Origin: Flavobacterium psychrophilum
Lineage (GTDB): Bacteria; Bacteroidota; Bacteroidia; Flavobacteriales; Flavobacteriaceae
Reading direction: 5' to 3'
Length of the DNA: 14,272 nt
Assembly (NCBI GenBank): GCA_945897545.1
Contig: CAMDGJ010000048.1
Location: 1 to 14,272, forward strand
Position 1 is the first letter of the stretch; every line of letters starts with the position of its first letter. The notes beneath the pieces were generated by a model. The model made no database searches, was not told where the DNA came from, and saw only the letters and a list, made by a program, of their open reading frames with translations. Shown piece after piece: positions 4,314-14,105 of this stretch. Position numbers and translations under genes: made by a program.

Positions 4314-7300
4314 ATGAAGAAAAAATTATTTATATATTTCGCACTAATCCCTTTTATTTCTTTTGCACAGATTAAAGGAGACGTGGCTATTGAATGGCTT
4401 GATAAAAATGAAATGTCGTTTGGGGATTTCAAAATTAATGCCCCGCAATTTATTGGCAGTAGTTATCATTATGACACATCGAAAAGAGCTATTTCTTTTA
4501 TCTTAAACATAACAGAATCAAGTTCTTTTAGCGGAAACACCGTTCAAATTACTAATGTAGTTTACGAATCATTAACAACATCACAACTCGGTGATTTAGA
4601 CCCTGCAAACATCCAAAAAAATCCTTCAGCATCTTTAAAAATTAATGAATCAAGAGGTTTAAAACAAGTTTTTCTTGTCTTGTCTCCAATTGTAAAAGCT
4701 GATTTTGGATTTAAAAGGATTACTTCTTTTTCCTATTCTGTTAGTAGTGAAAACTCTTCAAGAATTTCACAAACTAATAAAACGAGTGTCATCACAAATT
4801 CGGTTTTATCAACAGGTGATTGGTATCAGTTTTATATTGAAAAATCAGGTGTATATAAAATTTCAAAAAGTTTTCTGCAACAATTAGGTCTCAATTTTAA
4901 TGCGATAGATCCAAAAAAAATAAAAATTTACGGAAATGGAGGAAGAATGGTCCCGTTATCAAACAGCATTCCCTATCCAATAGATTTAACAGAAAATGCT
5001 ATTCAAATCATTGGCGAAAGCGATGGCGTTTTCAATAATGAAGACTATATATTATTTTATGCAGAAGGGGTTGATGTCTTTAATAACGAAAGCCAGACCA
5101 ACAATAATTTATACGATTCAAAGTCTTATTATTATGTAACGGTTCAAGGTACTGACGGTAAAAGAATTTCAACTATGGCTCAACCAAGCGGGAATAGTAT
5201 TTTAAATCTAAATACCTTTGACGATTATCAATTTCACGAAGAAGACCTTGTAAATATTGCGCGTCTTGGTCGACAATGGTATGGCGAATCATTTGATATC
5301 AATCAAGATCAAGAATTTACTTTTAGTTTTCCAAATATTGACACAACAACACCTGTAAAACTAAACGCAACTGTTGCTGCGGCTTCTTTTACACTCACTT
5401 CCTTCAAAGTTGTTGCGAATGGGCAAGAGGTGGGAACCATTTCACTTTCGTCTATAGTGCCCAATTCTAGTACTGTGTTTAATGTAGGCTCTCTGGCTAG
5501 CAACACGCCGATTCCAGCTTCTGAAACTATAAAAATAAAATTTTCTTACAATAATAACGGCGTCCCAGGTTCAAAAGGATACCTTGAAAAAATAAGTCTT
5601 ATTGCAAAAAGCAAGCTACAAGGGTATGGGAAACAATTTCGATTTCAATACGATTTGTCCATTTCAAGTTCGGGTATTGTGAGTTATAATGTTTCGAATG
5701 CTGCTGGTATTTCCCAGATTTGGGATGTTACTGATATATATAATGTAACCAAGGCCGAAAATGCAAATCAAACTTCTTTTTCTTTTAAAGCAAATCTAGG
5801 AGAGATTCGTAAATATGTAGCTATCGACCCCTTGGATTTTTATACTCCTTTAAAAACTAATAAAACAAAAATTGCAAACCAAAATATAAAAGGAACCATT
5901 TTTAAAAATGCACAAGGCCAATTTCAGGATATCGATTACGTGATAATAACACCCTCCTTTTTGTCTTCTCAAGCTGAAAAATTAGCAAATTTTCATCGCT
6001 CTTATTCTAAATTAAATGTAAAAGTAATAACTCTTGAATCTATTTATCAAGAATTTTCGTCAGGAAAACAGGATGTTGCCGCAATAAGAAATTGTATCAA
6101 ATATATTTATGACAATGCATCAGACCTTTCAAAAAAAGTGAAATATGTCAATCTTTTTGGCGATGCAACCTATGATTTTAAAAATCGAATCCCAAACAAT
6201 ACTAATATAGTTCCTATTTATCATGCATTAAGAAGTAACACAGTAGGTGAAGGATCATATGCATCTGATGATTTCTTTGGACTAATGGACGCAGGCGAAG
6301 GAAACATAGGCTCATTTTATGGAGGAATCGACATCGCTGTGGGAAGAATGATACATGACAATGCCCAACAAGCTGATGAAATGGTTAATAAAGTTATAGA
6401 ATACCACGACATAAAATCCTATGGAAGCTGGAGAAACAATTATTTGATGATATCAGATGATTCTGATAAGACATCAGACGCTAGCTTGCAAAACAGGCAT
6501 AATATTTTGGCAGATAAAATCACTTTTGAAAAACCCTTTTTAAACGTTAATAAAATACTATTAGATTCTTATGTTCAGGAAGCTTCCGCAGGCGGATCAC
6601 GGTATCCTAAAGCTCGCACGGAAATGTTCAGTGCATTCGAAAAAGGCGCGTTGGTTTTAAATTATCTTGGTCATGGCGGAGAAGACGGCCTTACGAGCGA
6701 ACGAATTTGGGAAAAATCAGACGGACAAAATTTAAATAATCAATACAGATACCCATTATTTATTACCATCACCTGCGATTTTTCACGGTTTGACAATCCA
6801 ACCAGGCCGACAGCTGGCGAATATACCTACTGGAACCCAAAAGGCGGCGCCATCTCTATGATTACTACCATTCGATCCATTGGGCAATTTAGCGCCGAAA
6901 ATTTTAATGATGTTCTAGCTAACTATTTATTTTCATATGGCTCTAACCAATATACTTCAATAGCAGAGTCCTTGCGAATGGCTAAAAACAGCAATCCAAA
7001 TTCCTCAACGAATGTCGTTTTCTATATAGGGGATCCAGCCCTTATGCTTGCCATAGCCAAACCTAAAATCAGATTAACAAAAGTAAATGATATTCCCGTA
7101 ACACAACCTATTGACGATTTCAAATCATTGGCAAAAATGAAAATATCAGGCGAAATTACAGACGAAAATAATGTTCCCTTAACTAACTATAATGGAGAGC
7201 TTTCAACTACTATGTTCGATAAATTTATTACAAGAACAACCTTAAATAATGATGGAAATAGCCCGTCAATGCCATTTAACGTGCTTGGTGAAACCATTTT

Positions 7301-11156: not shown

Positions 11157-12809
11157 ATGGCTACAATTGTAACGATGCCTCGTTTAAGCGACACAATGAC
11201 AGATGGAACGGTGGCAACCTGGTTAAAAAAAGTAGGAGACAAAGTAAGCGAAGGCGATATGCTGGCTGAAATTGAAACCGACAAAGCAACAATGGAATTT
11301 GAATCTTTCAACGAAGGAACACTTTTATATATTGGAATTCAAGAAGGAGAAACTGCACCTGTAGATTCACTTTTAGCAATTATAGGAAACGAAGGCGAAG
11401 ATATTTCCGCTTTAATAAGTCAAAGCCCCCCAACCCCCGAAGGGGGAGTTTCGGAGAGCGTTAATAAAAATGAATTAGAGGCACAAAAATCCACCCCAAC
11501 AACTCCCCCTTCGGGGGCTGGGGAGCTTCCAGCGGGAGTTGTCGTAGTGACAATGCCACGTTTGAGCGACACGATGACTGAAGGAACTGTAGCTACCTGG
11601 TTGAAAAAAGTAGGCGATAAAGTTACCGAAGGCGATATGCTTGCTGAAATCGAAACCGATAAAGCAACAATGGAATTCGAATCTTTCAACGAAGGAACTT
11701 TGTTATATATAGGAATTAAGGAAGGAGAATCTGCTGCAATTGATAGCTTATTAGCTATTATTGGACCCGCAGGCACAGATGTTAGTGTAATTATTGCTAA
11801 TGTAGGAATTGCACCTTTATCCGCTCCATCTGAAGAAGCAAAATCGGCACCAGCTACTCAAACCGCTGCACCAGTTGTGCAAGAAGTTCCAGCTGAGGGA
11901 CAAAGAATTTTGGCTTCGCCATTGGCAAAGAAAATTGCAAGCGAAAAAGGCATTCAATTATCACAAGTAAAAGGTTCAGGAGAAAACGGACGAATTACCA
12001 AAAGTGATGTGGAGAACTATACGCCAGCAAGCATTCCTCAGGTTGCAGATCACAAACCTCAGGAAGTTGCTCCATCAAAATCAGAACCAATTGCAGCAGT
12101 TGCAAAACCTTACGTTCCAGCAGGACAAATAGCTACTGAAGAGATTAAAAACTCTACAATGCGTAAAATCATTGCAAAACGTTTGGCAGAATCTCTATTC
12201 ACTGCACCACATTACAATTTGGTCATCGAGGTTACAATGGACGAAGCAATGAAATCAAGAGCTATTATTAACAGCGTTCCAGATACCAAAGTATCTTTTA
12301 ACGATATGATAATTAAAGCCTCTGTAATGGCTTTGAAAAAACACCCAAAAATCAATTCACAATGGACTGCTGAATCCATCATCATCAACTATCACGTGAA
12401 TATTGGTGTTGCCGTTGCTGTTGAAGACGGATTGGTTGTTCCAGTATTGCCATTTACGGATGGTATGAGTTTGTCTCAAATTGGAGCAAACGTAAGAGAT
12501 TTGGCCGGAAGAGCCAAAAACAAAAAATTATTACCTACCGAAATGGAAGGAAGTACTTTCACGATTTCCAACCTTGGAATGTTTGGAATTACCGAATTCA
12601 ATTCCATCATCAACCAACCAAATTCTGCCATCCTATCCGTAGGAGCAATTGTAGAAAAACCAGTGGTGAAAAATGGACAAATTGTAGTTGGAAACACGAT
12701 GATGCTATCTTTGGCTTGCGATCACAGAACTATCGACGGTGCAACCGGAGCACAGTTCTTGCAAACTTTGAAACAATATATTGAAAACCCAGTCACGATG
12801 CTAGCATAG
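11157..12809 (+). CDS. pdhC: Pyruvate dehydrogenase E2, dihydrolipoamide acetyltransferase
   Basis: E2 forms the core of the pyruvate dehydrogenase complex and transfers acetyl from its lipoyl arms to CoA. The 550 residues contain two lipoyl domains (about 1-80 and 130-206), with lipoylated lysines 43 and 169 in ETDKATMEF. A peripheral-subunit-binding domain lies at about 250-286 (ILASPLAKKIASEKG and GSGENGRITKSDV). The catalytic domain spans about 328-550, with the DHRTIDGA motif (His 523, Asp 527). The lipoyl domains are 67/74 identical. The linkers after domain 2 and after the binding domain are Ala/Pro-rich as usual. The first linker (about 88-128) is instead encoded largely by a GC-rich inverted repeat and reads SPPTPEGGV and TPPSGAGEL at its ends. 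The gene ends with TAG and a hairpin terminator. The symbol follows usage for pdhA-linked E2 genes; aceF is a synonym. Confidence 0.95.
   Translation: MATIVTMPRLSDTMTDGTVATWLKKVGDKVSEGDMLAEIETDKATMEFESFNEGTLLYIGIQEGETAPVDSLLAIIGNEGEDISALISQSPPTPEGGVSESVNKNELEAQKSTPTTPPSGAGELPAGVVVVTMPRLSDTMTEGTVATWLKKVGDKVTEGDMLAEIETDKATMEFESFNEGTLLYIGIKEGESAAIDSLLAIIGPAGTDVSVIIANVGIAPLSAPSEEAKSAPATQTAAPVVQEVPAEGQRILASPLAKKIASEKGIQLSQVKGSGENGRITKSDVENYTPASIPQVADHKPQEVAPSKSEPIAAVAKPYVPAGQIATEEIKNSTMRKIIAKRLAESLFTAPHYNLVIEVTMDEAMKSRAIINSVPDTKVSFNDMIIKASVMALKKHPKINSQWTAESIIINYHVNIGVAVAVEDGLVVPVLPFTDGMSLSQIGANVRDLAGRAKNKKLLPTEMEGSTFTISNLGMFGITEFNSIINQPNSAILSVGAIVEKPVVKNGQIVVGNTMMLSLACDHRTIDGATGAQFLQTLKQYIENPVTMLA
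11166..11765 (+). repeat. Duplicated lipoyl-domain coding segments in pdhC
   Basis: Segments 11166-11387 and 11544-11765 encode two 74-residue lipoyl domains that differ at only seven positions (67/74 identical). At the DNA level I count at least 20 silent codon differences, so the duplication is not recent and the protein sequence is held by selection. Most changes are at third positions (for example GTA/GTG and CCT/CCA). Multiple lipoyl domains are common in E2 proteins. Confidence 0.85.
11424..11527. repeat. GC-rich inverted repeat captured in the pdhC reading frame
   Basis: The arms 11424-11450 and 11501-11527 are inverted copies matching at 25 of 27 positions, separated by a 50-bp AT-richer spacer. 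Each arm carries its own small palindrome (CCCCCGAAGGGGG, or CCCCCTTCGGGGG on the other strand), which can fold as a hairpin with a UUCG-type loop. The stretch stands out sharply from the AT-rich surroundings. It keeps the reading frame: the left arm encodes SPPTPEGGV (residues 90-98) and the right arm TPPSGAGEL (116-124). I recall similar CCCCCTTCGGGGG repeats, usually between genes, in Flavobacteriia genomes. No T-run follows either hairpin, so it is not a terminator. Confidence 0.8.
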
Positions 12810-12830
12810 CAGATCGTTGATTTATATATG

Positions 12831-12865
12831 AAATCCCGTTTCTTTTTAAAGAGACGGGATTTTTT
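12831..12865 (+). terminator. Terminator after pdhC, shared with the convergent glycosyltransferase gene
   Basis: A hairpin with arms 12831-12843 and 12850-12862 (AAATCCCGTTTCT facing AGAGACGGGATTT, with one G-U pair) has a 6-nt loop. It is followed on the plus strand by more T up to 12865. It starts 21 nt after the pdhC stop. The T-run overlaps the stop codon of the glycosyltransferase gene on the other strand (12864-12866), so the two genes meet tail to tail at one structure. Confidence 0.85.
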
Positions 12866-14105
12866 ACTTATTCTTCTCCTCTATCCAACGCGACATATAT
12901 TTTGTACTTGCCAAAGTATGATGTTGCAATAGTGTTCCCATAAAATTTTGCAATCGATGTTGTTTTAAATAGGTTTGTACTTTCAAAATATGCTCAACGA
13001 AATCATTCGCAAATAAAGATTTTAAATACCGTTTTTCTATAATTTCAAAACCGTTTTCTTGGGCTTTGAGCCAAAGGATTTCATCTTGATACAATTCAAC
13101 TGCTCTATCAGCAAAAACTGACGCATCATCTGTAACAAAGCCATTCCAAGACAAATCGCCACACATCGATTCGGCTCCGTTAGTTGTCGTCACGGAAGGA
13201 GTTCCGCACTGCATTGCTTCCAATAATTTTCCTTTTATTCCTGCACCAAAACGTAAAGGAGCTAAAACTAATCGGGCATTTCTTACCACTTCTTGAGCAT
13301 CATTGGCACGACCCATAATATGAAAACCTTGTTTGGGTTGGTGTATTTGCAATGCTTTTTGGCTAGGATACGCTCCGTAAATCTGCAAAACCGCTTCTGG
13401 CATTTGCTTTCTGATAAGTGGCCAAATCGTTTCTTTTAGGTATTGAACTGCATTCCAATTGGGTTCGTGAAGGAAGTTTCCAATGAAGACAAAGTTGTTT
13501 CTTTCTTCAAAAGAAGGCGAATTTTGAATAGTTGAATCTTCAATTGGTTCTAACAACAAAGGCAAATCATACAGTAATTCTTTATCGATTTTGAAAACAG
13601 ATAGCAACAATTCTATTTCATATTCTGAAATCATTAGCGAAACATCACAACGCAAAATACTGGCAATTTCTCGTTTTGCAACATCTTCTACCAATAAATC
13701 ATCGGTAGTAAATTGTCGATTCTCTTTGAATGCTTTTTGGCGAGCCAAACGCAAACAATGCAAATCTTCTGTATCCAACAATCGTAAAGCATCCGGGCAA
13801 TTTTCGGCAACACGCCAACCAAACTGTTCTTCCATCATAAAACGGTCGAATAACACAATTGAAGGATTCAATTCTTTTACAAAAACATCAAAACTAGAAC
13901 AATTTAAAGTAATCGATTTTTTGGAAACCCCCAAAGATTGCAAATCAACCATATAATCACTATCCATTGCGGGACTAGCAAAAGTAACAGTGAAACCTTG
14001 TTCCATAAAAATGGAAATCAATTGTACCATCCTTCCCCCCGCTGCCGATGAATTAGGCTCTGGAAAGACAAATCCAAGAATTAAAACGCGCTGATTAACC
14101 ATCAT
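12864..14105 (-). CDS. GT-B glycosyltransferase (GT4-like)
   Basis: This cytoplasmic glycosyltransferase has a GT-B fold and probably transfers a sugar from a nucleotide donor in cell-surface glycan synthesis; donor and acceptor cannot be read from the sequence. From the ATG at 14105 it has 413 residues. The N-terminal Rossmann half opens with RVLILGFVFPEPNSSAAGG (6-24). The C-terminal donor-binding half has FVFIGNFLHEPNWNAV (205-220), LQIYGAYPS (240-248), HIMGRANDAQEVVRNA (262-277) and the signature PLRFGAGIKGKLLEAM (283-298), then GTPSVTTTNGAESM (301-314). There is no signal peptide or membrane helix. The frame stays open to 14153, but that TTG start would overlap a promoter candidate. An ATG at 14102 directly follows the chosen one and is equally possible. 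It converges on pdhC and appears to stand alone, with no other polysaccharide genes in the window. Confidence 0.85.
   Translation of the reverse strand: MMVNQRVLILGFVFPEPNSSAAGGRMVQLISIFMEQGFTVTFASPAMDSDYMVDLQSLGVSKKSITLNCSSFDVFVKELNPSIVLFDRFMMEEQFGWRVAENCPDALRLLDTEDLHCLRLARQKAFKENRQFTTDDLLVEDVAKREIASILRCDVSLMISEYEIELLLSVFKIDKELLYDLPLLLEPIEDSTIQNSPSFEERNNFVFIGNFLHEPNWNAVQYLKETIWPLIRKQMPEAVLQIYGAYPSQKALQIHQPKQGFHIMGRANDAQEVVRNARLVLAPLRFGAGIKGKLLEAMQCGTPSVTTTNGAESMCGDLSWNGFVTDDASVFADRAVELYQDEILWLKAQENGFEIIEKRYLKSLFANDFVEHILKVQTYLKQHRLQNFMGTLLQHHTLASTKYMSRWIEEKNK

Follow-up and report, generated by a model that had tools for sequence, protein, structure and literature searches.

An inverted doublet of a dispersed Flavobacterium palindrome, read in frame, as the probable replacement of a PdhC interdomain linker

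Introduction

How does a palindromic, repeat-like stretch of DNA come to be read in frame inside the gene of a core enzyme? The question is raised by pdhC in the window, by which we mean the whole stretch of 14,272 nucleotides of Flavobacterium psychrophilum DNA that was analysed. The original prediction, made from the letters of this stretch, held that inverted arms between two lipoyl domains of PdhC are a mobile or dispersed repeat, tolerated because the linker only needs to be flexible, and likened them to the Rickettsia palindromic elements (RPEs), which are described as 105-146 bp long and specific to Rickettsia (PMC2229807). We followed this up in the window and in related genomes, and concluded that the arms form an inverted doublet of a dispersed Flavobacterium palindrome of REPIN-like build, which is read in frame where an Ala/Pro-rich linker once joined the first and second lipoyl domains of PdhC. 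We put the probability of this reading at about 0.8.

Results

A repeat search of the window recovered two inverted arms of 28 nt, complementary at 26/28 positions (93%) and separated by 50 nt (Table 1), which agreed within one base at either end with the predicted 27-nt arms at 11424..11527 (25/27). A CCCCC-TTC-GGGGG palindrome was present in both, so that each arm is itself palindromic, as had been claimed. The 23-mer of the right arm had two matches in the window at ≤3 mismatches, one in each arm (expected 0.00), and at least two such matches occurred in 0/200 dinucleotide shuffles of the window. The RNA of 11420-11530 gave a predicted fold of -53.7 kcal/mol (z -6.1; equally stable shuffles 0/200). 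Arms and spacer were open throughout in the 550-aa frame, confirming a stop-free PdhC linker that encodes SPPTPEGG...TPPSGAGE between the lipoyl domains. The full translated segment is SQSPPTPEGGVSESVNKNELEAQKSTPTTPPSGAGE, followed by a conserved LPAGV, and the CTT of the right arm encodes the conserved Leu of LPAG. The two later PdhC linkers were Ala/Pro-rich in the ORF translation, again as predicted. A linker that needs only flexibility might in principle be Pro/Gly-rich and palindromic by accident of composition. This reading was rejected with near certainty, given that 0 matches were expected, that the reversed-pattern control gave 0 in every genome pattern-searched, and that copies occur elsewhere. 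A structure model of PdhC was set aside (mean pLDDT 36; built from 36 sequences, the window protein and 35 of 119 other homologues).

Table 1. Coordinates of pdhC, its domains and the element pair in the window
Feature	Position	Strand	Basis and remarks
pdhC, E2 (dihydrolipoyl acetyltransferase) of pyruvate dehydrogenase complex, 550 aa	11157..12809	+	ORF; Pfam Biotin_lipoyl (2 stretches), E3_binding, 2-oxoacid_dh
left arm	11423..11450	-	element copy on - strand; translated SPPTPEGGV; GGGGGCTT end leftward, toward lipoyl domain 1
spacer	11451..11500	.	SESVNKNELEAQKSTP; differs in arm-bearing relatives
right arm	11501..11528	+	second element copy; translated TPPSGAGEL; GGGGAGCTT end rightward
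second lipoyl domain, shortly 3' of element pair	11544..11762	+	Pfam PF00364, best stretch residues 130-202
E3-binding domain	11907..12014	+	Pfam PF02817, residues 251-286
acyltransferase catalytic domain	12135..12803	+	Pfam PF00198, residues 327-549

The arms belong to a dispersed family with a 27-nt unit and the consensus ATTCCCCCTTCGGGGG[TC]T[AG]GGGGGCTT. The relatives G001, G023, G037 and G064 carried 48, 61, 29 and 26 copies, respectively (≤3 mismatches over 24 nt; reversed control 0). These counts are not fully independent: the element-rich genomes are for the most part MAGs in which loci recur in near-duplicate form, and many copies are common to G001 and G023 through shared ancestry. 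A 13-mer of the element was present in 21/100 relatives, G001 included. A copy survey that took the genomes of 50 of 80 pdhC loci found at least one copy within one mismatch in 30/50 and none in 20/50, those of the F. johnsoniae type among the latter. Within one mismatch, there were 37 copies in the genome of locus L016, 20 in that of L012, 16 in Flavobacterium sp. 28A, 15 in F. sandaracinum and 11 in F. tiangeerense, and an exact copy was found in only 7/296 genomes drawn from the wider order. The named hosts were all Flavobacterium, such as F. sandaracinum (locus L020, genome G119) and F. tiangeerense (locus L023, genome G121), with none in Rickettsiales. The family thus has a patchy distribution, with its centre in one part of the genus Flavobacterium. 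Among IMG/VR records, 14 contigs (L385-L398) carried 15 copies, six of them in ORFs of at least 80 aa and four of these six in the SPxxPEGG frame. Phage records yielded no more than two entries, both for the same Gordonia phage (E 4), and plasmid records yielded no element match.

For the four relatives, copies were catalogued at ≤4 mismatches (161 in all; G001 48, G023 57, G037 29, G064 27). The catalogue is limited to the stretches fetched, hence 57 copies in G023 versus 61 counted genome-wide; it includes the near-duplicate loci L226/L286 (G023) and L217/L298 (G037), and two copies and one pair were probably counted twice, as L216 and L219 (G037) probably represent one stretch of DNA present at two contig ends. 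We found 99/161 copies in ORFs of at least 150 aa, and the dispersal between and inside Flavobacterium genes that had been predicted was therefore seen in relatives, at 26-61 copies per genome. Fifty-six copies lay deep inside ORFs, at 38 distinct sites. NCBIfam models matched 25/30 host ORFs tried at E ≤1e-20, several of them under the curated cut-off, and 5/30 were unmatched. By best NCBIfam match, the hosts included AspRS, MetRS, ValRS, IleRS, LeuRS, PurL, MetH, IcmF, PdhC, HemE and HemF, as well as BioA, MnmE, AroA, MurC, TrpG, HisH, a RecB/AddA-like helicase and an ABC-F-like ATPase. SucB was also a host, with four copies as two pairs, and the element segment was N-terminal in HemE, BioA, TrpG and HisH. 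In F. sandaracinum and Flavobacterium sp. 28A, 9/33 copies in the fetched stretches were inside ORFs of at least 200 aa, and some of these nine had flanking peptides as at the IleRS, MetH, MetRS and HisH sites, the hosts here being named by peptide match only. In PurL of G001 (L153 near 2752) and G023 (L278 near 2181), the element seemingly lies within an older one (SPLT, then TAPQPPKGE); PurL of G037 (L212 near 2048) has a simple SPLTPEGG.

The reading frames of the copies inside proteins were mostly of two kinds. At the 38 deep sites, 19 were read in an SPxTPxGG-type frame, 17 in a PPSGxxGL-type frame (some PPLG, SPSG or LPSG) and two in another frame, so that 36/38 were confined to two of six frames. 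This bias is not merely stop avoidance, since A-type copies are open in two frames per direction (two of four: p ~3e-9). The variable base also differed with position, being G in 33 and A in 23 of the deep copies versus G in 15, A in 88 and T in two of the others (Fisher p 1.6e-8 for G versus A; p 6.7e-6 without G023). A change from A to G at this base turns Arg into Gly or Leu into Pro. These sequence counts suggested that protein-level selection may lie behind the A-to-G shift in deep copies; a coding-prone subfamily would look alike.

The copies were also arranged by rule. Of the adjacent copies within 250 bp of each other, 40/42 were inverted pairs in which the GGGGGCTT ends pointed away from each other, and the other two were gaps between pairs in sucB. 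The pair spacers were mostly unrelated and formed no single family, with the exception of a CCTAnTnACCCCTAnTAGG-like motif beside copies before start codons; this second hairpin motif precedes the start-codon-touching copy of unrelated genes at L146, L149, L189, L228, L276, L287 and others. Borders were scored on 100 non-deep copies, with both sides treated equally and copies without such a codon within 400 nt excluded. The GGGGGCT end faced a stop codon within 2 nt in 29/36 cases versus 0/41 for the other end, and the first ATG within 6 nt in 24/33 versus 1/62. Both borders were recognised in 12/40 pairs, and all 12 bridged the stop and start of genes of the same direction. These borders argue for a functional RNA hairpin in operons, whose ends touch stop and start codons and which would couple or insulate translation, coding copies being a by-product; the conservation of the left pdhC arm next to an unconserved spacer, and the mostly unrelated spacers of pairs, point the same way. 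However, solo copies are common, the host genes are unrelated, the orthologous hemE, hemF and valS of relatives lack the element, and no Rfam family matched in the window or in eight element loci. We therefore consider the hairpin explanation unlikely.

To return to pdhC itself, the element was found in L027, the locus from G001, a genome with 31 cores, alone among the best 80 of 568 pdhC genome loci. In the 1.05 Mb comprising these loci and the window, the CCCCTTCGGGG core occurred four times, each time in a pdhC linker, either of L027 or of the window, and a second palindrome, CCGAAGCTTCGG, occurred ten times, nine of them inside pdhC. Among 118 readable PdhC proteins (2/120 were omitted, having no second lipoyl motif), most had Ala/Pro-rich linkers; in 17, the window's protein included, one or both arms were of the element type. 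A FastTree phylogeny of PdhC was built without linker 1 from 141 of 200 labelled rows. The element was present in 20/141 rows, in a pattern needing 16 changes of state, a count that is a guide only as many forks of the tree are weak; the well-supported branches alone forced eight changes for the commonest element type. The row nearest to the window, P0002 (97%), was without the element. The same linker DNA is thus not shared by all related pdhC genes.

Several observations in this gene pointed to recombination. A spacer of the type ATKV(E/D)EK, together with its arms, was common to nine PdhC rows on scattered branches, and P0014 consisted of the left half of one linker type and the right half of another. 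Linker recombination therefore contributes to the spread in pdhC, and part of that spread looks like recombination of whole linkers, not fresh transposition. Since nine rows share spacer type and arms, the window's copy may likewise stem from recombination instead of transposition. In linker 2 of G023, the left arm was followed by the same 11 nt as in linker 1 (13 of the next 14 match), and the sister G001 had an older-looking GIAENFKSG-type linker instead, resembling that of G037. The linker-2 copy and the shared spacer type both favour a cassette that spreads solely through homologous recombination from one pdhC gene to another and through gene conversion among the lipoyl repeats, with no insertion in this lineage. 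The window's spacer, however, was unlike the other spacer types seen in PdhC rows, and the element in dozens of unrelated genes requires a dispersal mechanism anyway, so that recombination as the only route is a possibility which we hold with considerable doubt.

The age of the copy was approached by comparing the arms with the rest of the gene. The left PdhC arm of the window was 26/27 identical to each of those of G001, G023 and G037, whereas only 74/171, 73/173 and 87/172 four-fold sites, respectively, agreed in the rest of pdhC. The right arms agreed less (13/27, 13/27 and 11/27), in a count blurred by gaps and by the existence of two types. The nearer relatives L003 and L004 (four-fold agreement 133/199 and 121/194) had no element in pdhC. 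Judged from these alignments, long neutral inheritance does not fit the left-arm identity well, and a recent arrival, recombination or homogenisation would fit.

Other repeats were seen in the same linkers. The pdhC linkers of F. johnsoniae-type genomes carried another palindrome, TTCCGAAGCTTCGGAA-like (SSEASEPK), at L026, L030, L040, L047, L049, L050 and L063 near 6287-6290 and at L040 and L066 near 6686-6689. Different repetitive peptides (NQKSEIKNQKSEI, and PVAEPQTTNNKPQTAE with variants) occurred in the pdhC linkers of L005, P0026, P0042, P0047 and P0057, so the pdhC linker may collect repeats in general. The L003 record is titled as a Klebsiella pneumoniae MAG, yet its pdhC is of the Flavobacterium type; it is probably mislabelled.

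The original prediction had envisaged insertion with clean edges. Orthologues with and without the element were aligned for HemF (20/22 loci), ValRS (20/29 high-scoring loci) and HemE (22/26 loci), and 8, 8 and 6 of these aligned loci, respectively, were used for a closer comparison of empty sites. The N-terminal segment of HemE was present only in G001 and G023 among the 22 aligned loci, and HemE of G005 (97% identical over the shared part) begins MIKNDLF, without the segment. In HemF, TPPSGAGGL was found only in G001 of 20, the others having a 9-residue turn; the DNA had a net gain of 24 nt and the turn itself was altered. In ValRS, SPPTPKGGA was found in G001 and G023 of 20. ValRS of G016 (L332) had a different palindromic pair, CTCTCCGAAGGAGAGG ... 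CTCCCCTCCTTCGGAGGGGTTGGGGGAG, in the same loop, which therefore accepts more than one palindromic family. At all four sites, the HemE start, the HemF loop, the ValRS loop and PdhC linker 2, the old sequence was gone, and the GGGGGCTT end lay at, or a few nucleotides from, conserved sequence. No target-site duplication or fresh insertion was recognised at these four sites. Clean edges were therefore not borne out, and the element occupied the place of the old loop or linker.

We also searched for an enzyme that might move the element. A true REP/REPIN family with an unusual tag could owe its movement to a RAYT (Y1 tyrosine transposase) acting in trans. Its inverted doublets with spacers fit the definition of REPINs (PMC3116915), and one RAYT subclass is described as mainly in Bacteroidetes, with atypical flanking structures (PMC6006769). 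Moreover, a RAYT-like gene of 226 aa (NHFH, YVHLNP) directly follows the element-bearing hemE in G001 (L152:3966-4643) and G023 (L225:4024-4701), and the hemF near this gene carries an element copy in G001. However, its motif fits RAYT subclass 2.1, which is given without REPs (PMC6006769), and in G016, whose locus L188 has no copy, a Y1 match was likewise seen between hemF and hemE. When 28 Y1 stretches were all scanned for the element (the intended ORF was recovered in 15 of these), a copy was found within the flanks of about 1.5 kb of only 3/28, all three in the hemE-hemF region. In the opposite direction, Y1 profiles run across 98 element-bearing loci matched only in that region, and no RAYT/IS200 transposase flanked by the element was found beyond it in 12 genomes. 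The number of Y1 genes was alike in element-rich and element-poor genomes (26 in 10 versus 50 in 20). With no GTAG or CGTC in the consensus either, movement by a RAYT appears rather improbable to us.

Discussion

The element was compared with the known classes of small palindromic repeats. RPEs and their Wolbachia relatives are palindromes that lie between genes and in frame in many conserved proteins (PMC2229807), and the resemblance noted in the original prediction was upheld by in-frame copies at 38 distinct deep sites in unrelated conserved proteins. The Flavobacterium element differs in its 27-nt unit, alone or as a doublet with a free spacer, and in its host genus; the likeness to RPEs is one of description. 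REPINs of Pseudomonas are described as inverted doublets of a short palindrome with a spacer and a predicted hairpin, extragenic and linked to RAYTs, and in SBW25, 14 of the REPIN 16-mers overlap genes (PMC3116915). The likeness is a dispersed short palindrome at 26-61 copies per genome in four relatives, with hairpin-forming inverted doublets. The differences are that more than half of the catalogued copies here are in ORFs (99/161, with 56 deep), that copies beside Y1 genes were seen only in the hemE-hemF region, and that neither strand of the consensus has the GTAG or CGTC tag of REPs and REPINs.

REPs and REP dimers have been described within ORFs, including those of tRNA synthetases and recB, with REP ends supplying stop codons (PMC3733652). 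Those intragenic GTAG/CGTC REPs share the setting, but the rules of frame, outward pairing and replacement found for the Flavobacterium element are not described in the portion of that article available to us (PMC3733652), and 'flavobacter' occurs 0 times in its text. RepRanger defines REPs, and its table has REP counts for F. urumqiense and F. ginsenosidimutans (PMC12306157); the part of the article at hand gives these counts without sequences or intragenic copies, and this element may be among the REPs counted. MITEs (Correia/NEMIS, ERIC) end in inverted repeats, and copies of them form in-frame fusions with genes (PMC2229807). Their terminal inverted repeats are comparable to the outward arms of the element, but the spacers of element pairs are mostly unrelated save for one motif, and no target duplication was seen. 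As the consensus has no tag and Y1 genes beside copies were seen only in the hemE-hemF region, the element was not filed as a REP, REPIN or RPE. Within the titles and abstract openings of the open-licence literature, from which subscription journals are mostly absent, no account of a Flavobacterium element of this kind with copies inside coding sequence was found.

For the replacement of the PdhC linker by an inverted doublet of this palindrome, we propose the following course. The element would multiply as selfish or nearly neutral DNA via some copying machinery. Most copies in constrained sequence would be lost, leaving survivors only where a Pro/Gly/Ser-rich segment can replace a loop or linker. 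The surviving copies in proteins would be read as a Pro/Gly/Ser-rich coil, a translation predicted from the open frames, and would drift toward Gly and Pro, and pdhC linkers would additionally move by recombination and gene conversion. The idea of a mobile or dispersed repeat tolerated as a linker thus stood as far as the family in relatives and its patchy presence in pdhC are concerned, and had to be amended in that the element replaces old sequence at the empty sites seen and that recombination probably accounts for part of the spread.

A bolder and quite tentative proposal is that the element acts as a mobile linker cassette, swapping whole variable segments (intergenic gaps, loops and interdomain linkers), with its outer ends facing conserved coding sequence where it stops. 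Copying might then proceed by template switching and gene conversion, with no classical transposase, and the cassette would repeatedly rebuild the loops of core enzymes.

Palindromic DNA within proteins has been chiefly a Rickettsia story, and it occurs here at high density in Flavobacterium, cultured species included. As the hosts are easily assayed enzymes with insert-free relatives, it becomes testable whether selfish palindromes supply protein segments, by which route they enter, and for what reason their ends fall where conserved sequence begins. Such N-terminal and internal segments should be recognised as repeats in gene calling. As a minor observation on the same locus, a terminator-like inverted repeat, AAATCCCGT...ACGGGATTTTTT, lies 3' of pdhC at 12830-12866 of the window.
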